A DNA stretch of 64,000 bases. Origin: Streptomyces ambofaciens ATCC 23877. GTDB lineage: Bacteria; Actinomycetota; Actinomycetes; Streptomycetales; Streptomycetaceae. The notes below the pieces were generated by a model. The model worked only from the letters and a program-made list of their open reading frames with translations, made no database searches and was not told the origin of the DNA. A program made the position numbers and the translations under genes. Where the stretch lies: contig NZ_CP012382.1 in the NCBI RefSeq assembly GCF_001267885.1, positions 2,963,001-3,027,000 on the forward strand, given 5' to 3'. Below are positions 33,129-59,936 of the stretch, piece after piece (the stretch's first letter is position 1; every line of letters begins with the position of its first letter).

Positions 33129-33202
33129 GGTGGGTGTAGCTCAGTTGGTAGAGCACCTGGTTGTGGTCCAGGTGGCCGCGGGTTCAAGTCCCGTCACTCA
33201 CC
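33129..33202 (+). tRNA. tRNA-His (anticodon GTG)
   Basis: A cloverleaf is readable. The 7-bp acceptor stem is GTGGGTG/CACTCAC with the extra G-1 paired to discriminator C73, the hallmark of tRNA-His. The D arm begins TAGCTCAGTTGGTAGAGC, the anticodon loop is TTGTGGT with anticodon GTG, and the T loop is TTCAAGT. CCA is not encoded. A strong hairpin follows. Confidence 0.97.
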
Positions 33203-33208
33203 CTGAAC

Positions 33209-48406: not shown

Positions 48407-49372
48407 TTGCCGCACACCAGGACACCGGGCACCGAAGCGACCCCGAGAGCCCGACCGCGCTGGTGGACCGAGCTGCCGCTCATCGTCCTCGTCTACGCCT
48501 GCTACTCCGCGGGCCGCCTGATGGTGCGGGGCGACGTGTCGGACGCGGTCGACCACGGGCTGGCGATCCTGCGCATAGAGAAGGTGCTCTTCCTCAACGC
48601 GGAGCACCCACTCAACCGCCTCTTCACCCGCGAACCCTGGCTCGGCATACCCGCCGACTTCTGGTACGCGTCCCTGCACTACCTGGTCACCCCGTTGATC
48701 CTGGTCTGGATCTTCCGCTCGCGCACCGTCCGCTACCGGGCCGCCCGCACCTGGCTGATGACGTCCACCTTCATCGGCCTCATCGGCTTCACCCTGCTGC
48801 CCACCTGCCCGCCCCGGCTGCTGGACGCGAGCCACGGCTTCGTCGACACGATGGCCCAGTACAGCGCGTACGGCTGGTGGGGCGGCGAGGCCAGCGCGCC
48901 GCGCGGCCTCGGCGGGATGACCAACCAGTACGCGGCCATGCCGAGCCTGCACGTGGGCTGGTCGCTGTGGTGCGGGGTGATGCTGTGGCGTTACGGCGGC
49001 ACCCGCACGACGAAGGTGGCCGGTGTCGTCTACCCGCTGGTCACCACGATCGTGGTGATGGGCACCGCGAACCACTACTTCCTCGACGCGGTCGCGGGCG
49101 CGGCCGTGATGGGGGCCGGGCTGCTGCTGACGCCGTACGTGCTGCGGACGGCGGAGCGCGTCCGGGGCAGCCTCGTGACCCGCTTCACGACCCGCTCCGC
49201 ACCGGCCACGCCCGCCCCGGACGGCGCGGGTTCCCCGATTGTCAGTGGCGGATGCCAGACTTCCGCGGGTGAGCGATTTCCACGCCAGCGCGAGCCACGG
49301 GTCGGACCGGGAGCCGAGCCGGACCCCTCCCCCTCGGACGCGGGGGACGAGACTCCGGCACCGGCTCGCTGA
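48407..49372 (+). CDS. PAP2/Aur1-like membrane phosphatase
   Basis: A 321-residue membrane protein with about six transmembrane helices. The PAP2 motifs are AAMPSLHVGWSLWCG (phosphate-binding Ser-Leu-His) and GTANHYFLDAVAGAAVMG (the catalytic His in N-H-Y-x2-D). The long first loop and the spacing match the PAP2_3/inositol phosphotransferase-like branch acting on lipid-linked phosphates. The start is taken as TTG 48407, since GGGGAGGG lies 8 bases upstream and the conserved region begins soon after. The last ~50 residues are low-complexity, and the gene overlaps the next one by about 100 bases in another frame. Confidence 0.87.
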   Translation: MPHTRTPGTEATPRARPRWWTELPLIVLVYACYSAGRLMVRGDVSDAVDHGLAILRIEKVLFLNAEHPLNRLFTREPWLGIPADFWYASLHYLVTPLILVWIFRSRTVRYRAARTWLMTSTFIGLIGFTLLPTCPPRLLDASHGFVDTMAQYSAYGWWGGEASAPRGLGGMTNQYAAMPSLHVGWSLWCGVMLWRYGGTRTTKVAGVVYPLVTTIVVMGTANHYFLDAVAGAAVMGAGLLLTPYVLRTAERVRGSLVTRFTTRSAPATPAPDGAGSPIVSGGCQTSAGERFPRQREPRVGPGAEPDPSPSDAGDETPAPAR

Positions 49373-50471
49373 GCTGCGCGGTCCCGACGTCCCGGCCAAG
49401 GCGCTGGACGCCCGGGCCCTGGCCGCCCTCGCCGCCAACCCGGGCTGCCGACGGCGCGCGATCCTCGACGGAGCCGGAGTGGACAAGGCGTCGCTCGCCG
49501 ACGCGCTGGGCTCCCCGGCGGTCTTCGGGCAGTCCCAGTTCGCGTTGGTGCGGGGCAACGCCTTCGAGGCCCGGGTCAAGGCGGACGGCGGGGCCGAGCT
49601 GCTGCGGCTGGTGCACGAGAAGCTGGACCGGGGCGCCGAGCCGCCCGCCGGCGCCCACGTGCCCGACCTGTCGGCGACGGGTCCCGAGGGCCGCGCCGCG
49701 CGGACCTCGCTGGCGCTGCGGGAGGCCACCGGCACGCCCGGCGCCTGGACGCTGCTCGACCATCCGATGCTCGCCCTCGACGTCGCCGGCTCCCCCGCGT
49801 TCCTGGAGCCGGACGCGGTCGTCGTGCATCCGGACGGCAGCTGGACCGTCGTCGAGATCAAGTCCTTCCCCATGCTGGACGGCTCCGCCGACCCGGCGAA
49901 GGTCGGCGCCGCCGCGCGGCAGGCCGCGGTGTACGTGCTGGCGCTGGAGCGGGTCGCCGCCCGGCTGGACCCGGCCCCCCGGGTGCGCCACCGCGTCCTC
50001 CTCGTCTGCCCGAAGGACTTCTCGAACCTGCCCACCTCCTCCGCCGTCGACGTGCGCAAGCAGCGCGCCGTCACCGAGCGCCAGCTGGCCCGGCTGACCC
50101 GGATCGAGGACATCGCCGACGCGCTCCCGGAGGGCGTCTGCTTCTCCCCCGAGCTTCCGGCCGAGGAGCTGGCGACCGCCGTCGAGGCGGTTCCGGCGAC
50201 GTACGCGCCCGACTGCCTGTCCGCCTGCGAGCTGGCCTTCCACTGCCGTGCCCGGTCCCGCGAGGCCGGTGCGGTGACCTCGCTCGGCCGCCCGGTGCGG
50301 GCCGAGCTGGGCGGTCTGTCGACGGTCGAGGAGGTGCTGGCGGCGGCCCGCGGGGAGGCCGGCGATCCGGACGACCCGGCGGTGGCGGCCCTGCGCAGGG
50401 CGGCACAGCTGCGGGCGGAGGCCCTCGCGTCGGCCGGTACGGGGACGAGCGGGGTGGCCGGATGTCGCTGA
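49269..50471 (+). CDS. RecB/Cas4-type PD-(D/E)XK nuclease with putative Fe-S cluster
   Basis: A protein of about 400 residues. The nuclease core is visible: RGNAFE (Glu100), FLEPDAVV (Asp182), WTVVEIKSF (Glu196-x-Lys198) and the QxxxY motif QAAVY (Gln218, Tyr222). Four cysteines bracket it: Cys60, then Cys316, Cys320 and Cys326 in DCLSACELAFHC. One upstream Cys plus a downstream triad is the arrangement of Fe-S nucleases (Cas4, AddB, Dna2), though here the spacing is C-x3-C-x5-C. The start is uncertain: GTG 49269 lacks a ribosome site and sits inside the preceding gene, but no later start exists before the conserved part. It overlaps the next gene by 10 bases. Confidence 0.85.
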   Translation: MSDFHASASHGSDREPSRTPPPRTRGTRLRHRLAELRGPDVPAKALDARALAALAANPGCRRRAILDGAGVDKASLADALGSPAVFGQSQFALVRGNAFEARVKADGGAELLRLVHEKLDRGAEPPAGAHVPDLSATGPEGRAARTSLALREATGTPGAWTLLDHPMLALDVAGSPAFLEPDAVVVHPDGSWTVVEIKSFPMLDGSADPAKVGAAARQAAVYVLALERVAARLDPAPRVRHRVLLVCPKDFSNLPTSSAVDVRKQRAVTERQLARLTRIEDIADALPEGVCFSPELPAEELATAVEAVPATYAPDCLSACELAFHCRARSREAGAVTSLGRPVRAELGGLSTVEEVLAAARGEAGDPDDPAVAALRRAAQLRAEALASAGTGTSGVAGCR

Positions 50472-52060
50472 TCACCACGCTCGCCCGGCTGGAGGCCGTG
50501 CGCACGGGCCGCGCCGAGCCCGCCGCCACCGTCCGGCACCGGCATCTGTCCGACCGCCCGCTGGTCTTCGTCCCGCTGACCACCGCCGGTGAGGCCGGTG
50601 CCCCGCTCGGCGCCCTGGTCGGCACCGACCGGGACGCGCCGCGGCTGCTGGTCGTGCCACAGCCCCGCGACCGCGACCTGCGCTTCGCCTTCCTGGCCGA
50701 ACTGGCCGACATCGTGCTGCCGCACGTGGAGGCGTACGCCGACAGCGTCGAGGCCGCCGAGCGCACCGAGACCGACCCGGAGACGGGCAAGCGGATCAAG
50801 GTCGAGGTCGACCTGTGCGCCGACGCCGCGCAGCTGATCGTGCCCAGCCGCGCGGGCATCGACTTCGTACGGCTGCTGGGCCGGTCGATGCGGTTCCGGC
50901 GTACGGCGGAGGAGGACCCGGAGACACCGCACCCGGCCCCGCCGAGGGTGCCGCTGCTCGGCCGGTGGCTGACCCACTACGGCGAGCGGGCCCGGGTCCC
51001 CGGCTCCTCCCTCCTCCTCGCCATGACCGACCTGCTGGGCCGGCACTGGGCGACCGGGCAGTCCACGCTGGAGGACCAGCACCTGGGCGCGCTCCTCGCG
51101 TGGATCGCGCCGGGCGCCGAGGGGCCGACCGGCGCGGAGGCCGCGCGGCGGGCCGAGCTCGCCCGTGACGCCGACGGCCAGCTGCTGTGCCCGCCCGCGG
51201 GCCCGGCCACCGACCCGGCCTTCGACAACAGGCTGCTCGCCCCCGCCATCGAGCGCTACGACCGGGCCCGCACGGCGCTCGCCGCCGCCGAGGACGGTCT
51301 GGAGGCCGACGACCGGCTGGGCGCGCTCACCGCCGCCGAGCGGGAGATCCGCGCCCTGGTCGACAGCCGTACCCGACCCACCTGGGACGCGGTGTGGCGG
51401 GGACTGGACCTGCTGCGGGAGCTGCCCGCCGGCGCGCACGTCGAGGAGCGCTGGACCCGGGACCGCTGGTCGTTCACCTCGCACCGCGACCGCATCCTGG
51501 CCGGCGAGCCCCCGCAGCCGCGTCACGACGACGCGGTGACCGCGGCCAACAAGCTCGCCACGCGCGAGCGGGAGCAGGCACGGCTGGAGGCCCAGGAGGC
51601 GCTGGACGATCCGCTGGTGATGGCCGCGCGGCGGCTGGCCGGGGAGGCGTTCGCCGGGGAGGTCATCGATGTCGTGATGGCGTACAGCGAGAGCAAGCGG
51701 CCCAGTCCGCGTCCGCTGATCACGGTCCGTACGGACGACCGCCCCCAGCCGGCCGAGCGGGCCCGGGTCTTCCGGTCGCTGGACGGCAGGCCGCAGGCGG
51801 CGGAGTACGTCGCGCAGGAGGACGAGGGGGTCCTCGTGCTGCGCCTCGTGGACAAGATGGGCCGCGGCAGGGAACCCGAGGCCGGCTCGGTGCCCGAGAA
51901 GGGGGACCGGGTCTGCTTCACCCTGTTCGAGCACGAGCAGCGGGGCGGGGCCAAGCTGCCCGATCCGGACCGGACCCCGTGGACGCACGGCGGACCACCC
52001 GGTGAGACGGCCACCGTCGCGGAGGCGGCCGACGCCCAGACCGAGGAGGACGTGCTGTGA
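50462..52060 (+). CDS. unrecognised protein between nuclease and helicase
   Basis: A 532-residue soluble protein for which I see no catalytic motif. The N-terminal half is alpha/beta (RPLVFVPLTTAGEAGAPLGA; RDLRFAFLAELADIVLPHVE). The centre is helical and charged. The last ~110 residues are beta-rich, with EGVLVLRLVDKMGRGREPEA and PEKGDRVCFTLFEHEQRGGA, which could be a small OB- or stalk-like domain of the kind placed before UPF1-family helicase cores. Its ATG overlaps the nuclease stop, and its stop overlaps the helicase GTG (GTGA), so all three proteins are probably made in fixed ratio and may form one complex. Confidence 0.85.
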   Translation: MSLITTLARLEAVRTGRAEPAATVRHRHLSDRPLVFVPLTTAGEAGAPLGALVGTDRDAPRLLVVPQPRDRDLRFAFLAELADIVLPHVEAYADSVEAAERTETDPETGKRIKVEVDLCADAAQLIVPSRAGIDFVRLLGRSMRFRRTAEEDPETPHPAPPRVPLLGRWLTHYGERARVPGSSLLLAMTDLLGRHWATGQSTLEDQHLGALLAWIAPGAEGPTGAEAARRAELARDADGQLLCPPAGPATDPAFDNRLLAPAIERYDRARTALAAAEDGLEADDRLGALTAAEREIRALVDSRTRPTWDAVWRGLDLLRELPAGAHVEERWTRDRWSFTSHRDRILAGEPPQPRHDDAVTAANKLATREREQARLEAQEALDDPLVMAARRLAGEAFAGEVIDVVMAYSESKRPSPRPLITVRTDDRPQPAERARVFRSLDGRPQAAEYVAQEDEGVLVLRLVDKMGRGREPEAGSVPEKGDRVCFTLFEHEQRGGAKLPDPDRTPWTHGGPPGETATVAEAADAQTEEDVL

Positions 52061-53418
52061 CCGCCGAGGCCCCCGCCGCGCCCGCCGCCCCGGCCTTCGA
52101 CCCGGGCACCGAGGCCGCCCGCGCCACCGCCGCGATCCTCCACGACACGCTGCACGGCACCGAGCGTGGTGTCGTCGTGGACTCCCCGCCCGGTGCCGGC
52201 AAGTCCACGCTCGTCGTGCGGGCGGCTCTGGAGCTGGCCGAGGCCGGCCGCCCGCTGATGGTCGTGGCGCAGACCAACGCCCAGGTCGACGACCTGGTCC
52301 TGCGCCTCGCCGAGAAGAACCCCGACCTGCCGGTGGGACGCCTGCACAGCAGTGACGCCGACCCGTACGACAAGGCGCTCGACGACCTGGCGAACGTACG
52401 CAAGTCGGCGAAGGCCGCCGATCTCGCCGGGCAGGCCGTCGTCCTGTCGACCGCCGCGAAGTGGGCGCACGTCACGGTGGACGAGCCGTGGCGGCACGCG
52501 ATCGTCGACGAGGCGTACCAGATGCGCTCCGACTCGCTGCTGGCCGTGGCGGGGCTGTTCGAGCGGGCGCTGTTCGTGGGTGACCCGGGTCAGCTGGACC
52601 CGTTCGCGACGGTGGGCAGCGAGCAGTGGGCGGGCCTGGCGTACGACCCGTCGGCCTCCGCCGTGACGACGCTCCTGGCCCACAACCCGTCCCTGCCGCA
52701 GCACCGGCTGCCGGTGTCGTGGCGGCTCCCGGCGTCGGCGGCCCCGCTGGTGTCCGACGCCTTCTACCCGTACACGCCGTTCCGCAGCGGTACGGGCCAC
52801 GGCGACCGGAGTCTGGCCTTCGCGGTGGCGTCGGACGGGTCCGGTCCGGACCGGGTGATCGACGAGGCCGCGCGGTCCGGCTGGGGTCTGCTGGAGCTGC
52901 CCGCGCGGCACACGCCGCGCACCGATCCGGAGGCGGTGCGGGCGGTGGCGGCGGTGGTCCGGCGGCTCCTCGACCGGGAGGGCGCGGCGACGTCCGAGCG
53001 CTCGTCCGCCCCGGTGCCGCTGAGCGCGGGCCGCGTGGCCGTCGGCACCGCGCACCGCGACCAGGCGGCGGCGGTGCGGGCCGCGCTGGCCGACCTCGGG
53101 GTGACCGAGGTGACCGTCGACACGGCCAACCGTCTGCAGGGCCGCGAGTACGACGTCACGGTCGTCCTGCACCCGCTCTCCGGCCGCCCCGACGCCACCG
53201 CGTTCCACCTGGAGACGGGCCGCCTGTGCGTCCTGGCCTCCCGGCACCGGCACGCGTGCATCGTGGTCTGCCGGGAGGGGGTGGGCGACCTGCTGGACGA
53301 CTACCCGTCCACGGAGCCGGTCCAGCTCGGCACCCTGGTGAAGTTCCCGGACGGCTGGGAGGCGAACCACTCGGTACTGGCGCACCTGGCGGACCACCGG
53401 GTGGCCTGGCGGCCCTGA
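52057..53418 (+). CDS. UPF1/Dna2-like superfamily 1 helicase
   Basis: A 453-residue SF1 helicase. Walker A is DSPPGAGKST (Lys49), Walker B is AIVDEAYQM (Asp151-Glu152), motif III is LFVGDPGQLDPF (174-182), motif IV is PVSWRLP (Arg223), motif V is DTANRLQGREYDVTVV, and motif VI is LCVLASRHRHACIVVCR. The order and wording match UPF1/Dna2-type (SF1B, 5'-3') helicases rather than UvrD. It lacks its own nuclease domain; the gene two upstream supplies one. GTG start overlaps the previous stop. Its last ~23 codons recur twice downstream as DNA copies. Confidence 0.9.
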   Translation: MTAEAPAAPAAPAFDPGTEAARATAAILHDTLHGTERGVVVDSPPGAGKSTLVVRAALELAEAGRPLMVVAQTNAQVDDLVLRLAEKNPDLPVGRLHSSDADPYDKALDDLANVRKSAKAADLAGQAVVLSTAAKWAHVTVDEPWRHAIVDEAYQMRSDSLLAVAGLFERALFVGDPGQLDPFATVGSEQWAGLAYDPSASAVTTLLAHNPSLPQHRLPVSWRLPASAAPLVSDAFYPYTPFRSGTGHGDRSLAFAVASDGSGPDRVIDEAARSGWGLLELPARHTPRTDPEAVRAVAAVVRRLLDREGAATSERSSAPVPLSAGRVAVGTAHRDQAAAVRAALADLGVTEVTVDTANRLQGREYDVTVVLHPLSGRPDATAFHLETGRLCVLASRHRHACIVVCREGVGDLLDDYPSTEPVQLGTLVKFPDGWEANHSVLAHLADHRVAWRP

Positions 53419-53790
53419 CGCCCCGAACGGCCCCCGCACCCGGCCCGACAACGCACCCCGGCCCGCCGGACGGAGTCCGGCACGCCGCCGCAGGCGGCCC
53501 AAGGACACAGCCCGGACGGCTGGGAGGCGAACCACTCGGTACTGGCACACCTGGCGGAACACCGGGTGGCCTGGCGGCCCTGACGCCCGGGGCGGAATGG
53601 CGCCCGGCACCCCGGGCGGCCCCGGTACTCGCCCGACAACGCCCCGGTCCGCCGGACGGAGTCCGGCACGCCGCCGCAGGCGGCCCAAGGACACAGCCCG
53701 GACGGCTGGGAGGCGAACCACTCGGTACTGGCACACCTGGCGGAACACCGCGTGCCCTGGCGGCCCTGACGCCCCGAACGGCCCCCGCAC
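53350..53790 (+). repeat. three tandem copies of the helicase gene 3' end plus flank (165-186 bp unit)
   Basis: The sequence starting GACGGCTGGGAGGCGAACCA occurs at 53350 (inside the helicase gene), 53515 and 53701. Each copy encodes the same ~23-residue C-terminus and TGA, followed by related flank containing CCGCCGGACGGAGTCCGG. The copies differ at a few bases. The two outer copies have no start codon or ribosome site. Confidence 0.92.
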
Positions 53791-53939
53791 CCGGCCCGCC
53801 GGACGGAGTCCGGTACTCGGCGCGACGACGCCCCCGCCGCCCGGGACGGAGCCCGTGGTCGAGGGTCGGTGTGCTCCGGAGGGTTGGTTTCCCTTAGGGC
53901 TAAGATTTCAGCACCGAACACATGCCGCGAGGGGAAGAC
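53419..53939. other. gene-free region between helicase and marR
   Basis: A 521-base region. Its first ~370 bases are the repeat copies. The last ~130 bases carry the marR promoter and a short inverted repeat. No gene is supported. Confidence 0.6.
53893..53904. promoter_or_regulatory. candidate MarR operator
   Basis: CTTAGGGCTAAG has 5-base inverted arms (CTTAG/CTAAG) and lies 36 bases before the marR ATG in an A+T-richer patch. Size and placement suit autoregulation by MarR, but the site is short and unproven. Confidence 0.4.
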
Positions 53940-54488
53940 ATGGCTCAGGGCAGGGCCGCGAAGCGGCCGGACGCTGTGGCGGGGATCGTCGAGGACTGGG
54001 CGCGGGAGCGGCCCGAGCTGGACACGGCGCCGCTGGAGGTGCTGGCCCGGCTGCACCGCTCGTACCTCCAGTACCAGTCGCGGATGACCTCGCGGCTCGA
54101 CGAGCACGGGCTCTCCGTCGCCGGGTTCGACGTGCTCACCGCGCTGCGCCGGGCGGGCGCCCCCTACCGGCTGACCGCCGGGCAGCTCGCGGACTCCGGG
54201 CTGATCTCCTCGGCGGGAGTGACACTGCGCCTGGACCGGCTGGAGAAGGACGGTCTGCTCGTGCGCGAGCGCGACGCCGGTGACCGGCGCGTGGTGTACT
54301 CGCGGCTCACCGAGGCCGGGCTGGCGAAGGTGGACGAGGTGTTCGCCGAGCACCTGGAGAACGAGCGCCGGATGCTCGGCGGGATCTCCCCCGCCGAGCG
54401 TCGTCAGCTGAGCCGTCTGCTGTCCAAGCTGGAGCGTTCCATCGTGGACTCCGACGACATCCCGGCTCAGCGCGCCGAGACGGGCTGA
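53940..54488 (+). CDS. MarR-family regulator
   Basis: A 182-residue MarR protein. The winged HTH is at residues about 55-125 (GFDVLTALRRAGAPYRLTAG; SSAGVTLRLDRLEKDGLLVR; wing ERDAGDRRVVYSRLTEAG), flanked by dimerisation helices. ATG 53940 follows GAGGGG by 6 bases. It faces the Rieske oxygenase gene, whose 3' end it overlaps by 22 bases. MarR proteins next to aromatic catabolic operons usually sense the substrate or an intermediate, so this one may regulate the operon, though the operon promoter lies beyond the window. Confidence 0.92.
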   Translation: MAQGRAAKRPDAVAGIVEDWARERPELDTAPLEVLARLHRSYLQYQSRMTSRLDEHGLSVAGFDVLTALRRAGAPYRLTAGQLADSGLISSAGVTLRLDRLEKDGLLVRERDAGDRRVVYSRLTEAGLAKVDEVFAEHLENERRMLGGISPAERRQLSRLLSKLERSIVDSDDIPAQRAETG

Positions 54489-55495
54489 GCCTTCGACTGC
54501 CGCCCGGCCTGGGCCTGGTAGAGGCGACGCAGGCGGACCACGCCCAGGTCGTGCTGGTAGAGGTTCTCCCGCTGGTCGGCGTCCGCGGGCATGCTCTCCA
54601 GGATGACGCGGTCCTGCTCCAGGACCTCCCAGTGGCGGGCCTCGATGAGGGTCTTGTAGAGGAAGCGCCAGGTGTCGCGCTGCCAGTCGCTCACCCTGCG
54701 GTAGCGCCAGAAGAAGACGCCGGTGCGCCCGGCGTCCACCGGGCAGGCCATGCCGACGATGCCGAAGGGGCCCCCGGGGCCGGCCGACGGCGGGTAGGGG
54801 ATGGACAGGTCCACCCAGTCGACCCCGGTGTGGCAGAGCTCGACCCAGTCGAAGTTGACGCCGCGCTGGTCGGTCTTCTCGAAGAAGTAGCCCCGTTCCG
54901 TCTCCCGGATGCGGAACTTGGCCGTCGTGTCCCCGGCGAACATGGTGTGCGACTCGGAGTGCAGGAACGCGCCGTGCATCGGGTCGAGGAGGTTCTCCAT
55001 GGCGAACCGCCACGGCACCTCCCACTCGGCGTAGCAGAGGAAGGCGGAGATCTCCTCGTCGGCGAGCGGTCCGGGAAGGGTGAGCTCCACCGGGTCCGGG
55101 TGCTCCTCGTCACCGAAGTAGGCGAGGATCGCGCCGCCGACCTCGCGGACGGGCAGCGAGGTGACGAGGGTCTTGCCCTCCAGGTTGCAGCCGGGCAGGC
55201 CGGGCACCGAGGTGACCGTGCCGGTGCCGTCGACCTCGACGCCGTGGTACCAGCAGGCGACCCGGTCGCCCAGGTGCTTGCCGAGGGACAGGGGCGCCCC
55301 GCGGTGCGGGCAGCGGTCGGCGAGCATGGAGAGACCGCCGTCGGCCTTGCGGAAGAGCAGCCAGTTCTCGCCGAGGGCGGTCACCTTGCGCATGCCGCCG
55401 GGCTCGACGAAGTGGGACGGCACCACGGGGTGCCACTGGTTGCGCAGGCCGTGGGCGTAGATGTGGTCGGCGGTGTCGCGGGTGGAGAGGGTCAT
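54467..55495 (-). CDS. Rieske non-heme iron oxygenase, oxygenase component
   Basis: A 342-residue oxygenase component. The Rieske [2Fe-2S] site is RCPHRGAPL (Cys62, His64) plus CWYHG (Cys81, His84). The mononuclear iron site is ENLLDPMHGAFLHSESH, with His174 and His179 as ligands and Asp171 as the bridge between the clusters of neighbouring subunits. The size and the early Rieske position resemble vanillate O-demethylase/phthalate-type single-subunit oxygenases (class IA), and the VanB-type reductase gene two upstream would be its electron donor. It hydroxylates or demethylates an aromatic-type substrate. It is the last gene of the leftward operon. Confidence 0.93.
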   Translation of the reverse strand: MTLSTRDTADHIYAHGLRNQWHPVVPSHFVEPGGMRKVTALGENWLLFRKADGGLSMLADRCPHRGAPLSLGKHLGDRVACWYHGVEVDGTGTVTSVPGLPGCNLEGKTLVTSLPVREVGGAILAYFGDEEHPDPVELTLPGPLADEEISAFLCYAEWEVPWRFAMENLLDPMHGAFLHSESHTMFAGDTTAKFRIRETERGYFFEKTDQRGVNFDWVELCHTGVDWVDLSIPYPPSAGPGGPFGIVGMACPVDAGRTGVFFWRYRRVSDWQRDTWRFLYKTLIEARHWEVLEQDRVILESMPADADQRENLYQHDLGVVRLRRLYQAQAGRQSKAQPVSAR

Positions 55496-55496
55496 G

Positions 55497-55733
55497 TCAG
55501 GCTCCCAGGCGGTGCATCTCGGCGCGGAAGGACTCCTCGGTCCAGGGCTCTCCCGTGGGCGTGCGCAACTGGCGGGAGTTGAGGCCGTCGATCACGTCGG
55601 ACAGGCCGTGGCCGTCCTTGGTGAAGATGTCCTCCAGGGTGCGCGCGAGCTTGGTCTCGTACGGGGTGGGCTCGTGGTCGCGGGTCTGGTGGGTTTCCAG
55701 GTAGGGCCAGGTCTCGGGCACGGGGTTCTCCAC
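55497..55733 (-). CDS. small recombinase-like helix-turn-helix protein
   Basis: A 78-residue protein whose second half, DGLNSRQLRTPTGEPWTEESFRAEMHRLGA, resembles the 'recombinase' domain segment of large serine recombinases (N-x-x-G-x-x-T-P-x-G-x-x-W-T). No catalytic domain is attached, and it is packed between oxygenase and reductase genes with gaps of 1 and 6 bases. It is therefore not a mobile-element remnant but probably an accessory of the oxygenase system. Its function is unknown. Confidence 0.8.
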   Translation of the reverse strand: MENPVPETWPYLETHQTRDHEPTPYETKLARTLEDIFTKDGHGLSDVIDGLNSRQLRTPTGEPWTEESFRAEMHRLGA

Positions 55734-55739
55734 AGGGGG

Positions 55740-56684
55740 TCAGAGGTTCAGGACGAGGCGGTCCGAGGCGCAGCGCGAGACGCAGATCATCATCGTCTCG
55801 CCGGTGGCGCGTTCGGCGTCGCTGAGCAGGAAGTCGCGGTGGTCGGGCGTGCCCGCGAGGACGCGGGTCTCGCAGGAGCCGCAGATGCCGTCGCGGCAGG
55901 AGGAGGCGACGTCCAGCCCGGCGTTCTCGGCGGCCTCCAGGATGGAGGTGCCGGGGGCGACGTTCAGGGTCACCCCCGACGTCCGGCACTCCACCTCGAA
56001 GGCGCTGTCGTCGTCCTCCCGGGCCACCACCGGCGCGGCGAAGCGCTCGGTGCGCAGCCGCCCTTGCGGCGCCGCCTCCTCGACCGCCTTCAGCAGCGGC
56101 TCGGGGCCGCAGCAGTACACCAGCGCGTCGGCCGGCAGGTCCGCGAGGACACCCGGCACGTCGATGTGTCCCTGCTCGTCCTGCGGTACGAGGGTCACCT
56201 CGCCGCCGAGCGCCGCGAGTTCACCGCCGAACGCCATCGAGGCGCGGGTACGGCCGCCGTGGACCAGCCGGTACGGGACGCCGTCCCGCTCCGCGCGGCG
56301 GGCCATCGCCAGGATCGGCGTGATGCCGATGCCGCCCGCGAGGAAGACGTAGGAGGCGGCCGGTTCGAGGGCGAAGTGGTTGCGCGGCCCGGCCACCCGC
56401 ACAGTCTGGCCGGGCCGCACCTTGGTGTGCACGTGGCGGGAACCGCCGCGTGACGCCGGCTCGTTGAGGATGCCGAGCCGGTACACACCCGTCTCCTCCG
56501 GGTCTCCGCACAGGCTGTACTGGCGGACGTGGCCGCCCACGTGCAGGTCCAGGTGGGCCCCGGGTGTCCAGGCGGGCAGCGGTTTGCCGTCCGGGTGGAC
56601 CAGCTCGACGGAGAGGACTCCGTCCGCCTCCCAGGTCGTGCGGTGGACGAGGAGGTCCAGTTCCTGCTCTTCGGTGGCGCTCAT
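55740..56684 (-). CDS. VanB/PDR-type oxidoreductase (FMN, NAD, 2Fe-2S)
   Basis: A 314-residue phthalate dioxygenase reductase-type electron transfer protein. It has a flavin barrel (HVRQYSLCGDPEETGVYRLG), an NAD-binding domain (YVFLAGGIGITPILAMARRA; VYCCGPEPLLKAVEE) and a C-terminal plant-type [2Fe-2S] ferredoxin domain with SSCRDGICGSCETRV and a last Cys in MMICVSRC. It passes electrons from NAD(P)H to the Rieske oxygenase encoded two genes downstream. Length is standard for the family. Confidence 0.95.
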   Translation of the reverse strand: MSATEEQELDLLVHRTTWEADGVLSVELVHPDGKPLPAWTPGAHLDLHVGGHVRQYSLCGDPEETGVYRLGILNEPASRGGSRHVHTKVRPGQTVRVAGPRNHFALEPAASYVFLAGGIGITPILAMARRAERDGVPYRLVHGGRTRASMAFGGELAALGGEVTLVPQDEQGHIDVPGVLADLPADALVYCCGPEPLLKAVEEAAPQGRLRTERFAAPVVAREDDDSAFEVECRTSGVTLNVAPGTSILEAAENAGLDVASSCRDGICGSCETRVLAGTPDHRDFLLSDAERATGETMMICVSRCASDRLVLNL

Positions 56685-56698
56685 GTCGGCGGTCCTCC

Positions 56699-58330
56699 CT
56701 ACCGGGTGGGGATCTTGACGGGCGGGGTGAACGGGTTCTTCATCGGGCCGAGCGCGTCCAGGTCGACCTCGACGAGGGTCGGACCGTCGGAGGCGACGGC
56801 CGCGTCGATCACCTTCGCCGCCTCGCTCGCGTCGCCGATCCGCGCGTACGGGAGGGAGCAGGCGGCGGCGAGCCGGGCGAAGTCGGGGGTGAACAGGTCG
56901 ACGCCGGAGCGGCGTTCGGTGTAGGTGGCCTGCATGTTGCGCAGCACGCCGTAGCCGCCGTCGTTGAAGACGATCAGGGTCAGCCGGGGCCGTTCCTGGG
57001 CGAGGGTGAGCAGTTCGCCGAGGTGGACGGCGAGCCCGCCGTCCCCGGCGATGACCACGGTGGGCTCGCCGGGGCGGGCGAGGGCCGCGCCGAGGCCCAT
57101 GCCGAGGCCCTGGCCGATGCCGCCGCCGCGCGGGAAGACGTTGGCCCGCGGGTCGTGGAGGGGCAGCAGGCGGTTGCCCCAGGACGAGGACGGGATGGTC
57201 ACGTCCCGGGCGACGACGGCGCCCCGCGGCAGGGCGGCGGCGAGGGCGTCGCAGATCGCGGCCTGCGGTCCGATGCCGTCGTGCAGGGCCGCCCGCACCT
57301 CCTCGCGCACCCGGCGGACGCGTGCCGTCCAGTCGGCGTCGGCCCGTACGGCGGCCTCGGTGAGGTCCGGCAGGACGGCCGCCGCGTCGCCGTGGAGGGC
57401 GTGCGGCGCGGGGTACACCCGGCCGAGGGCGGCGGCGTCGAGGTCGATCTGGATGTGCGCCTCGGGGAGCCGGAGCGCGTAGTCGGCGGTCTCGTTGGAG
57501 CGGAAGTGGGTGCCGACGGTGACGAGGACGTCCGCGTCGGCGAGCAGGGCGCGGGCGGCGGGCGTGGTGGCGAAGTTGCCGACGACCTGGTCGTGGTCCT
57601 CGGGTACGGAGCCCCGCCCGGAGTTGGTGGTGAGCAGACCGGCGCCGGTCGTCTCCAGCAGAGCGAGGAGCTGGTCGCGGGCGGTGTTCGCGCCGCCGCC
57701 GGCCCAGATCAGCGGGCGCCGGGCGGACGCGAGCAGGTCACGGGCCGCGGCCAGCCGGGACGGGTCGGGCACCGGCGCGCCGGCGACCGGGGTGCTCCGC
57801 CCGTCGTCCTCCTGGACCGCGTACTGGAGGTCGATCGGCCACTCCACGCTCGCCGGCCCGCCCGGCGCGGTGAGCGCGGCGGCGGTCGCGTCGCGCAGGA
57901 CGCGGCCCGCGTCCCGGGCGGAGGTGACGGTCGCGGCGTGCTTGGACACCGCGGTGAGCATGCCGAGCTGGTCCTTGGTCTCGTGGATGAAGCCGCGCCC
58001 GCTGCCGAGGTGGGCCGACTCGACCTGGCCCGTGACGTGCAGCACCGCCGTGCCCGAGGCCAGCGCCTCGATCAGGGACCCGGCCGCGTTGCCCGCGCCG
58101 GTGCCGGTCGAGGTGAGCGCGCAGCCGATCGTGCCGCGGGCCCGGCCGTACGCGTCGGCGGCGTTGACGGCGCTCGCCTCGTGCCGCACCGGTACGAACC
58201 GCAGCTCCGGGTCGGCCTCGACGGCCTCCACCAGCGGCAGGTTGTGCACGGACACGATGCCGAACACGGTGTCGACGCCGATGGACTTGAGGTGGGCGGC
58301 CAGGAGTCCGCCACCGTGGTCGTAACGCAT
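56699..58330 (-). CDS. thiamine pyrophosphate-dependent enzyme of the operon
   Basis: A 543-residue TPP enzyme of the benzoylformate decarboxylase/acetolactate synthase family. The catalytic Glu is in PVRHEASAVNAADAYGR. The TPP domain carries RGGGIGQGLGMGLGAALA, VVIAGDGGLAVHLGELL and IVFNDGGYGVLRNM (GDG and NDGG motifs). It is only distantly like the TPP enzyme at the left end of the window. In a catabolic operon it may decarboxylate a 2-keto acid such as an aryl glyoxylate or pyruvate side chain. The start ATG is at 58330, and 9 bases separate it from the upstream SDR gene. Confidence 0.9.
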   Translation of the reverse strand: MRYDHGGGLLAAHLKSIGVDTVFGIVSVHNLPLVEAVEADPELRFVPVRHEASAVNAADAYGRARGTIGCALTSTGTGAGNAAGSLIEALASGTAVLHVTGQVESAHLGSGRGFIHETKDQLGMLTAVSKHAATVTSARDAGRVLRDATAAALTAPGGPASVEWPIDLQYAVQEDDGRSTPVAGAPVPDPSRLAAARDLLASARRPLIWAGGGANTARDQLLALLETTGAGLLTTNSGRGSVPEDHDQVVGNFATTPAARALLADADVLVTVGTHFRSNETADYALRLPEAHIQIDLDAAALGRVYPAPHALHGDAAAVLPDLTEAAVRADADWTARVRRVREEVRAALHDGIGPQAAICDALAAALPRGAVVARDVTIPSSSWGNRLLPLHDPRANVFPRGGGIGQGLGMGLGAALARPGEPTVVIAGDGGLAVHLGELLTLAQERPRLTLIVFNDGGYGVLRNMQATYTERRSGVDLFTPDFARLAAACSLPYARIGDASEAAKVIDAAVASDGPTLVEVDLDALGPMKNPFTPPVKIPTR

Positions 58331-58339
58331 GCGAACTCC

Positions 58340-59131
58340 TCAGAGGATGCCGCGGCCGACTCCGCCGCAGACGTCGATGCTGGTTCCGGTGATGTACGAG
58401 GCGCGCGGGGACAGCAGCGAGACGATCGCGTAGGCGACCTCCTCGGCGCGGCCGAGCCGTCCCAGCGCGATGCCCCGGTCCGCGGCGATCTCCGCCTGCC
58501 ACTCCTCGTAGGTGAGCCCGCTGCCGGCCGCGGCGTGGCGGCGGGTCCACTGGCCGGTGTCGACGAGGCCGAGGCAGACGGAGTTGACGCGGATGCCCTC
58601 GGGGGCGAGTTCGCGGGCGAGGGAGGTGGAGAGGTTGAGGATGCCGGCGCGGGCGGCGCTGGTGGTGATCAGCCGGGTCTCCGGCTGCTTGGCGAGGACG
58701 GCGTTGACGTTGACGATGGCGGCGGCGTCGGAGGAGCGGAGGCGGCCGCGGGCGGCGGCGAGGGGGTTGAGGACGCCCGCGAACTTCAGCTCCAGCTCGT
58801 CGCGCCAGTCGTCCCCGGTCGTCTCGTCGAGGGTCTTCATCCGGGACTGGCCGGCGTTGTTGACGAGTCCGTCGAGGCGTCCGCCGAGGCGGGCGGCGGC
58901 GCGCTCGGTGAAGTCCCTTACGGCGTCGGCGTCCCGGACGTCGCAGACGCCGGTGTACAGCCGGTCCGCGTCGGCGCCGAGGGCCGCCGCGGCCTTGGCG
59001 AGCCGGTCGGCGTCGCGCCCGCAGGTGGCGACGCGGGCGCCTTCCGCCAGCAGGGCCCGGACCGTGGCCAGGCCGACGCCGGAGCTGCCGCCGGTGACCA
59101 GGACGGTGCGGTCGGCGAGGCCGAGATCCAT
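58340..59131 (-). CDS. atypical short-chain dehydrogenase-like protein lacking the YxxxK pair
   Basis: A 263-residue SDR-fold protein. The cofactor motif VTGGSSGVGLATV and the NNAG motif (residues 91-94) are present. Where YxxxK is expected the sequence is TSAAR (Thr157...Arg161), and the usual catalytic Ser region reads IVNVNAV. The normal SDR proton-relay residues are therefore absent. It could be a non-redox or differently acting member. The C-terminal region (SYITGTSIDVCGGVGRGI) is typical. It belongs to the operon, 52 bases after the canonical SDR gene. Confidence 0.87.
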   Translation of the reverse strand: MDLGLADRTVLVTGGSSGVGLATVRALLAEGARVATCGRDADRLAKAAAALGADADRLYTGVCDVRDADAVRDFTERAAARLGGRLDGLVNNAGQSRMKTLDETTGDDWRDELELKFAGVLNPLAAARGRLRSSDAAAIVNVNAVLAKQPETRLITTSAARAGILNLSTSLARELAPEGIRVNSVCLGLVDTGQWTRRHAAAGSGLTYEEWQAEIAADRGIALGRLGRAEEVAYAIVSLLSPRASYITGTSIDVCGGVGRGIL

Positions 59132-59183
59132 GGGTACTCCTTGGGGAGGGGCGAGGGGCGCGTGTCCGTGAGGCAGGGGTGGG

Positions 59184-59936
59184 TCAGTGCATGGTGAAGC
59201 CGCCGTTGACGGCGACGACCTGTCCGGTCAGGTAGCGGGACTCCTCGCCGAGCAGGTAGGAGACGAGCCCCACCAGGTCGTCGGGGGTCTGCGGCCGGGG
59301 GATCGCGCGGTTCGCCGCGTACAAGGCGTGCCGCTCGGCCGGTACGGTCTCGGTCGCCTCGACCTCGGTGAGGCCCGGCGCCACCGCGTTCACGGTGATG
59401 CCGCGCCCGCCCAGTTCGCGGGCCATCGCCCGGGTCAGGGCGACGACCGCGCCCTTGGAGGCGATGTAGTGGGCGAGCCGCGGGGAGCCGTAGAGCGCCG
59501 CGTCGGAGGCGATGTTGACGATGCGTCCGGGGGCGGACATCAGCGGCAGCAAGTGCTTGGCGACGAGCCAGGGGCCGCGGGCGTTGACGGTCATCAGCCG
59601 GTCCCAGGCCTCGACGTCGATGTCCTGGAACTCCCGGCCGCCCACGCCGTTGGCGAGCGCCGCGTTGTTGACCAGGCCGTACACGGGACCGGCGGGGGCG
59701 AGGCGGGCGGCCAGTGCCTCGACCGAGGCCGGGTCGGCGACGTCCAGCGGCCGGAACTCCGCCGCGCCGCCCGCCGCGCGGATCGCCGCCGCCGTACGGG
59801 AGCCCCACTCCTCGTTCAGCTCGGCGACGACGACCCGGTACCCGTCGGCCGCCGCCCGGCGGGCCATGGCCTCCCCCAGGCCACGGCCCGCGCCGGTCAC
59901 GACGACCGTAGGGCGCCCGGTGGCCGGGTCAGTCAC
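59184..59936 (-). CDS. short-chain dehydrogenase/reductase
   Basis: A 250-residue classical SDR. The cofactor loop is VVVTGAGRGLGEAMARRAA, NNAAL follows (NNAG-like), and the catalytic residues are intact: Ser in IVNIASDAAL and Tyr-x3-Lys in HYIASKGAVVALTRAMA. The C-terminus LTGQVVAVNGGFTMH is typical. It oxidises or reduces an alcohol/ketone intermediate using NAD(P). The start overlaps the cupin gene's 3' end by 8 bases. Confidence 0.93.
   Translation of the reverse strand: MTDPATGRPTVVVTGAGRGLGEAMARRAAADGYRVVVAELNEEWGSRTAAAIRAAGGAAEFRPLDVADPASVEALAARLAPAGPVYGLVNNAALANGVGGREFQDIDVEAWDRLMTVNARGPWLVAKHLLPLMSAPGRIVNIASDAALYGSPRLAHYIASKGAVVALTRAMARELGGRGITVNAVAPGLTEVEATETVPAERHALYAANRAIPRPQTPDDLVGLVSYLLGEESRYLTGQVVAVNGGFTMH

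Follow-up and report, generated by a model that had tools for sequence, protein, structure and literature searches.

In UPF1-like helicases and in Dna2, a barrel is held by a two-helix stalk, and in Dna2 this element stands between the nuclease and the helicase (PMC4716839). The Geobacillus protein Bad, a bacterial DNA2-like enzyme, carries an iron-sulfur (Fe-S) cluster, moves 5'-3', and contains a conserved central domain of unexplained fold (PMC7430649). Here we examine a three-gene operon from Streptomyces ambofaciens ATCC 23877 that encodes a nuclease, a middle protein, and a helicase, and that lies in a stretch of 64,000 nucleotides (hereafter the window; positions 2,963,001 to 3,027,000 of contig NZ_CP012382.1, forward strand, assembly GCF_001267885.1). 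An earlier note on this DNA read the trio as a split Dna2-type machine. The parts, their order, and seven natural proteins in which the middle protein is joined to the helicase make this the best account of the locus, and co-occurrence of the genes in the same 21 of 148 genomes adds support. We consider it likely that the trio constitutes a Dna2-type helicase-nuclease distributed over three chains, which would assemble in the order seen in the fused enzymes.

In the database records examined, the trio proteins are labelled hypothetical, the helicase AAA-family at most, and no publication on the operon was found by title or abstract, a search whose coverage excludes preprints outside PMC and most subscription journals. 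What carried only these names is now recognizable as a likely DNA-processing machine, its middle gene being present in 187 of 199 Streptomyces genomes.

Parts of a probable divided helicase-nuclease

Homologous loci were drawn from a scan of genome contigs; the best 80 of at least 587 relatives, all outside Streptomyces and nearest to a non-Streptomyces query, are referred to below as the named loci. The nuclease alignment comprises 72 sequences, namely the window protein, seven database proteins, and 64 of the 80 named loci. In the numbering from the upstream TTG codon, the motif residues are E110, D192, E206/K208, and Q228/Y232, with cysteines at C70 and C326/330/336. All four cysteine sites are Cys in 72/72 sequences, as K208 and Y232 are Lys and Tyr in 72/72; E110 is kept in 71/72 (the remaining one is D), E206 and Q228 in 70/72 each, and D192 in 67/72, so that the acids are 93-99% kept. 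The earlier note had placed Glu100, Asp182, Glu196-x-Lys198, QxxxY, Cys60, and Cys316/320/326 by counting from GTG 49269, and every position is correct in that frame; this codon fits as a start, the resulting 400 aa matching the length of P0121, the nearest relative in the database. Its assignment of a RecB/Cas4-type nuclease agrees with the predicted fold, in which residues 1-34 are unstructured, and with the near-invariance of the motif residues, and the cysteines on whose conservation it had staked the claim are constant. RecB-family motifs and four Fe-S cysteines spanning the domain are likewise features of Dna2. Judged from these residues and the structural model, the protein appears to be an Fe-S-type (iron-staple) RecB/Cas4-like nuclease of the Cas4/Exo5/Dna2 type, with a predicted Fe-S cluster. 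Neither Pfam nor NCBIfam reports any family in the window nuclease, and PDDEXK_1 of Pfam matches 7/72 homologues weakly (best 0.0014). Its profile retrieves from the solved structures only two designed repeat proteins and one weak single-stranded-DNA-binding protein, which were set aside.

The last gene encodes a UPF1/Dna2-like superfamily 1 (SF1) helicase, as the earlier note had recognized. Pfam reports AAA_11 (9e-12), AAA_12 (4e-7), and also AAA_30 in the window protein; the profile matches SMUBP-2 (2.5e-11), Dna2 (3.2e-8), and UPF1 (7e-6) among solved structures, and NCBIfam gives PLuB- and IGHMBP2-type matches below the cut-off. The Walker A sequence GAGK, the DE pair, Q179, R223, and R396 are invariant (36/36) in an alignment of the window protein with 35 named loci. 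Since only about 45 residues precede Walker A, this helicase has no room for a barrel of its own.

Between these two genes lies what had been described as a 532-residue protein of unknown type, and no Pfam family indeed stands above the cut-off in it. NCBIfam gives one match, far below cut-off and to a family other than TIGR03491, and the four matches of its profile to solved structures (NucC-type proteins and Hsc70, E 0.3-1.2) were judged to be chance. Its predicted structure comprises an RNase H-like/exonuclease-like domain, helices, and a C-terminal barrel that is most similar to Senataxin/Sen1, tied with flavin-reductase barrels. The suggestion that the beta-rich C-terminus forms the stalk/OB part of the helicase holds in part: a stalk and a Senataxin/Sen1-type barrel are predicted, whereas an OB domain was not recognized. 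The DxE motif at the end of strand 1 of the exonuclease-like domain is absent, columns 34-39 being hydrophobic or Pro in 73/73 middle proteins, and RNase_H_2 (PF13482) is matched neither by the window protein at E up to 1 nor among the listed families of the 73 members. The modelled domain, without the usual acids, is probably inactive as an enzyme.

Natural fusions join the middle protein to the motor. A search with the three proteins joined as a single query, in which the 7991 candidates with the most common words were scored, yields nine proteins, seven of which (P0241-P0247) are middle-helicase fusions. Six of these are 930-936 aa long, and the seventh, of 789 aa, ends inside the helicase. 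The middle part runs from residue 1 to near 485 and the helicase part starts near 500, with the motif TPWTHGGPP (IPWTHAGPP in P0241) directly ahead of the junction. A nuclease part occurs in none of the nine, and P0248 is a long middle protein, not a fusion. P0249 (1080 aa) combines the first half of the helicase with GmrSD-type domains (PF03235/PF07510), as either a genuine fusion or a disrupted gene. The trio thereby shows the Dna2 arrangement of a UPF1-like SF1B motor, evident in its sequence, with a barrel and stalk, seen in the predicted structure, between nuclease and motor, an order supplied by the fusions. We infer that the middle protein and the motor would together make up one UPF1-like helicase, split between the barrel and RecA1.

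All three open reading frames lie on the + strand, and their overlaps are the 10 and 4 bases given in the earlier note (Table 1). The three-gene arrangement is not chance, since the same three genes recur together in other genomes.

Table 1. Positions in the window of the three genes and their main sequence features.
Feature	Position	Strand	Remarks
Nuclease gene	49239 (TTG) or 49269 (GTG)..50471	+	Fe-S-type RecB/Cas4-like (predicted); 410 aa from TTG, 400 aa from GTG
Codon of Cys70 (Cys60 in GTG numbering), first predicted Fe-S ligand	49446..49448	+	invariant 72/72
C-x3-C-x5-C cluster, Cys326/Cys330/Cys336 (316/320/326 in GTG numbering)	50214..50246	+	invariant 72/72
Nuclease/middle gene overlap, 10 bp	50462..50471	+	
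Middle gene, 532 aa	50462..52060	+	predicted RNase H-like/exonuclease-like domain, helices, C-terminal barrel
Tail motif TPWTHGGPP, residues 505-513	51974..52000	+	invariant 73/73; tail modelled at low confidence
Middle gene/helicase gene overlap, 4 bp	52057..52060	+	
UPF1-like SF1 helicase gene, 453 aa	52057..53418	+	two RecA domains
Walker A (GAGKS) codons	52192..52206	+	GAGK kept in 36/36

Comparison with single-chain enzymes

Dna2 is one chain, whereas the trio occupies three open reading frames, with nuclease and helicase on separate chains and the helicase itself divided, its barrel on one chain and RecA1 on the next. The trio also possesses an extra exonuclease-like domain and, as noted, no recognized OB domain. 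Compared with Cas4, Exo5, and the Argonaute-associated Cas4 (ACE1), its nuclease is larger and has a helicase partner in the operon. Bad, as described, resembles the trio as a bacterial Fe-S nuclease and SF1B motor with a central domain between them, and several hundred residues separate its nuclease Asp150 from its Walker A Lys815; unlike the trio, it is a single chain (PMC7430649). The split trio is also relevant to the central domain, so far unexplained, of the bacterial Bad proteins, and a helicase divided between barrel and motor offers a natural way to study how the two cooperate.

The TM0106 family (TIGR03491) shares the order nuclease, RNase H-like domain, and helicase, but on one chain. 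Several weak helicase matches elsewhere fall in frames of about 1100-1300 aa; the four of these fused proteins scanned match TIGR03491 (4/4), AAA_11/AAA_12 (4/4), and RNase_H_2 (3/4), and five of six TM0106-type proteins keep the motif F/Y-D-x-E-G-D-P; the trio proteins of the window match neither TIGR03491 nor RNase_H_2 above cut-off. Profile alignment to fused TM0106-type proteins gives 1e-21 for the helicase, a weak 0.017 for the nuclease, and nothing for the middle protein, for which no in-register alignment was obtained. (The TM0106 alignment holds 23 loci, left from 32 candidates after removal of three without the string DEAGQ and six duplicates.) The trio resembles the TM0106 and Bad enzymes in design, with the same order of parts, and is not a TIGR03491 member. 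Mutual exclusion of trio and fused proteins was considered and set aside: 37 of the 148 genomes sampled from the class match one fused TM0106-type protein, the two co-occur in one of the 21 trio genomes (G031), and no exclusion is claimed because 11 of those 21 belong to one genus. One further genome with a fused TM0106-type match retains a helicase remnant with stops and no other trio gene (G107:C17:23037-23699).

Conservation and distribution

Across actinobacteria the homologues are not found mostly apart, in keeping with the earlier note. Of the 148 class genomes, 21 have the middle gene; these 21 also have the helicase (E <1e-90) and the nuclease, which is matched weakly in one more genome (G147, 1.6e-4). 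The genes are adjacent in 20 of the 21, the helicase of the remaining genome (G095) lying 36 kb away. A sample of the phylum gave matches in 11 of 296 genomes, every one of them from this class. Among the named loci the nuclease is present in 79/80 and the helicase in 70/80; the ten that lack the helicase at the locus, by title Micromonospora or Verrucosispora, all have it elsewhere in the genome. Given these ten loci and G095, adjacency of the trio is not obligatory. With analyst-chosen start codons, nuclease and middle genes overlap at 36 of 78 junctions and middle and helicase genes at 47 of 70; the latter gap is at most 60 bases in 63/70 and reaches 2.4 kb in the others. Within Streptomyces, the four genes upstream of the core operon are conserved in 10/10 compared genomes. 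Nothing points to a phage origin: no relative was found in phage records or in viral contigs scanned with patterns from the window's own middle protein.

A fourth gene and accessory copies

A fourth gene lies directly upstream of the nuclease gene in 59 of the 80 named loci. Of the 21 without it, four (L056, L067, L092, L096) include hardly any sequence, or none, ahead of the nuclease gene. Its product, of about 255-310 aa, combines a predicted N-terminal coiled coil (judged by eye) with a LTSLRRDEERSF..RPYYLC core. Six members scanned give no Pfam family above cut-off, the profile finds nothing better than E 0.09 among solved structures, and a genome search did not find the gene in the window's genome. 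Eight matches in the class sample comprise five beside the trio, one degraded, and two marginal. There the gene accompanies 3/10 non-Streptomyces trio genomes, against 59/80 of the named loci, and its frequency depends on the sample. It is present in 17 of 199 Streptomyces, all of which have at least two middle-gene matches; seven further Streptomyces have at least two such matches and no fourth gene.

In a tree of 68 middle proteins, which has long branches and places L153 unsurely, a single clade (support 100) unites the core Streptomyces copies, and most of the neighbours of this clade carry the fourth gene. Three other clades hold the accessory copies, two associated with SbcCD (a single group under another root) and one with pPIWI-RE. 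Some accessory SbcCD copies lie near chromosome or contig ends (G195:C1 24151 and 10652169; G269:C1 24346 and 8507420; G235:C1 4721), and in G195 and G269 one copy lies about 24 kb from each end, the two scoring equally, an arrangement like that of terminal inverted repeats.

SbcD stands beside 11 of the 17 accessory four-gene copies, with SbcC in 10 of these, and the other six adjoin PprPDDEXK, pPIWI_RE_Y-REase, and pPIWI_RE_Z-DinG, with a pPIWI-RE match 2-3 kb past DinG on the same strand in all six genomes. One genome counted as SbcCD type (G101) also shows a pPIWI-RE match, though a weaker one, some 9 kb away from the helicase gene. In 17/17 loci the SbcCD or pPIWI-RE neighbours are divergent from the fourth gene. 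Such genes were found in 0/10 core loci and in 0/12 control regions; the controls came from 12 of the 17 genomes, each at a distance of about 100-120 kb, and the queries used on them were only the proteins that neighbour the module. Fisher tests give p 1.9e-8 for 17/17 against 0/12 and p 4e-4 for SbcD alone (11/17 against 0/12), counts that treat as independent 17 loci falling into three clades. At four of the 80 named loci an sbcD-sbcC pair follows the helicase gene on the same strand, the gap being about 20-135 bases or less: L074 (Amycolatopsis palatopharyngis), L080 (Kibdelosporangium philippinense), L101 (Amycolatopsis pretoriensis), and L083 (Micromonospora), the last without the fourth gene. 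The placement of SbcD by Dna2-like genes in 11/17 accessory loci, and on the same strand in 4/80 named loci, recalls resection by Mre11-Rad50 (SbcCD) and Dna2, as a genomic association only.

pPIWI-RE has been proposed as an RNA-dependent restriction system, together with an R-loop hypothesis (PMC3702460). The triad of REase, DinG, and pPIWI-RE is absent from the window's locus, and the genome that contains the window gives no PF13032 match; the pPIWI-RE system is a neighbour of accessory copies, and the trio is not a member of it. Other neighbours include HmaA/HmaB beside L152 (1290/1033 bits) and JetA/JetB-like genes beside L175, L177, and L178. Two Streptomyces plasmids carry the four genes together with Wadjet genes (L218, NZ_CP108489.1; L217, NZ_CP027023.1); the plasmid of NBC_01244 also has SbcCD, and that of WAC00288 has SbcCD in pieces. 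The SbcCD neighbours at L217 are fragmented, the short pieces lying in different reading frames. Beyond SbcC at the accessory loci L183, L184, and L186 lies a TnsB-like (Mu-transpos_C/rve) and AAA_22 gene pair, which suggests a Tn7-type mobile element. PADLOC 2.0.0 finds no convincing system in the trio: it reports no family for the nuclease or middle protein and only local helicase matches for the helicase, the best being MkoA (3e-9).

Proposed function and alternative explanations

In the mechanism we propose, the first protein would act as a RecB/Cas4-like nuclease of the iron-staple kind; the middle protein would combine an exonuclease-like scaffold, probably inactive, with the stalk and barrel of the helicase; and the last protein would be the two-RecA motor. 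SF1B motors have 5'-3' polarity. The complex would most likely travel 5'-3' on single-stranded DNA, feeding the nuclease, and because such movement would present single-stranded DNA to it, the complex may trim or resect DNA ends or flaps, a role to which the enzyme family and the SbcCD neighbours also point. The core copy is nearly universal in Streptomyces and sits at a conserved site, which suggests a role in genome maintenance, and the three-gene Streptomyces form probably represents a vertically inherited chromosomal function. The accessory copies probably act in defence, as their neighbouring genes indicate; the four-gene form, with its extra coiled-coil protein, would work with an end-processing system (SbcCD) or a guide system (pPIWI-RE), and its target is probably foreign DNA. 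That one module stands next to SbcCD in some loci and next to pPIWI-RE in others suggests a degradation unit that can be reused with two different means of recognizing foreign or broken DNA. More tentatively, and with less confidence than we place in the split enzyme itself, the full unit might be a bacterial counterpart of Mre11-Rad50 and Dna2 resection made up of six genes (the fourth gene, nuclease, exonuclease-like/barrel protein, motor, SbcD, and SbcC), whose accessory versions, or the module with a pPIWI-RE guide, degrade invading DNA, and of which Streptomyces fixed a stripped three-gene version for maintenance.

Were defence the function throughout, the trio would be an anti-phage or anti-plasmid nuclease-helicase and the core Streptomyces copy a fixed defence locus. 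Accessory copies do stand among HmaA/HmaB, JetA/JetB-like genes, six sets of pPIWI-RE partners, and, on two Streptomyces plasmids, Wadjet, and the helicase has weak Mokosh matches. Near-universal fixed presence is, however, unusual for defence genes, and the middle gene is in 187/199 Streptomyces with its upstream block kept in 10/10 compared genomes; nor was a relative found in phage records or in viral contigs scanned with patterns from the middle protein of the window. We regard this extension of defence to the core copy as unlikely.

A role in R-loops, in which a Senataxin-like helicase and a nuclease clear RNA-DNA hybrids, appears less probable still. The barrel of the middle protein is closest to Senataxin/Sen1, and the helicase is related to SMUBP-2 and UPF1, which act on RNA and DNA. 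The pPIWI-RE genes beside 6/17 accessory copies would reflect such a role through the R-loop hypothesis for pPIWI-RE (PMC3702460). The larger accessory group (11/17), however, has SbcCD, a DNA-end enzyme. The nuclease, moreover, is of the Cas4/Exo5/Dna2 type, known for acting on DNA. Least probable to us is that the three enzymes are transcribed together yet work separately in DNA metabolism and form no physical complex. The helicase does lie elsewhere in the genome for 10/80 named loci and G095, but the natural middle-helicase fusions, co-occurrence in 21/21 genomes, the overlaps at 36/78 and 47/70 junctions, and a helicase without its own barrel all argue against separate enzymes.

Other features of the window

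The genes downstream of the operon (53922-59936; MarR-, Rieske-, ferredoxin-reductase-like, and thiamine-enzyme-like by reading) follow it, within 20 kb, in one of ten Streptomyces (G133). The sole tRNA gene found in the window is tRNA-His (gtg) at 33130-33203. The last 24 or so codons of the helicase gene and the bases that follow recur twice past its stop (region 53291-53781; copies at 53456-53595 and 53642-53781); the two copies are 96% alike to each other and 71% to the in-gene copy. Similar extra copies follow the helicase gene in G133 and G123, making three of the 11 core loci examined.

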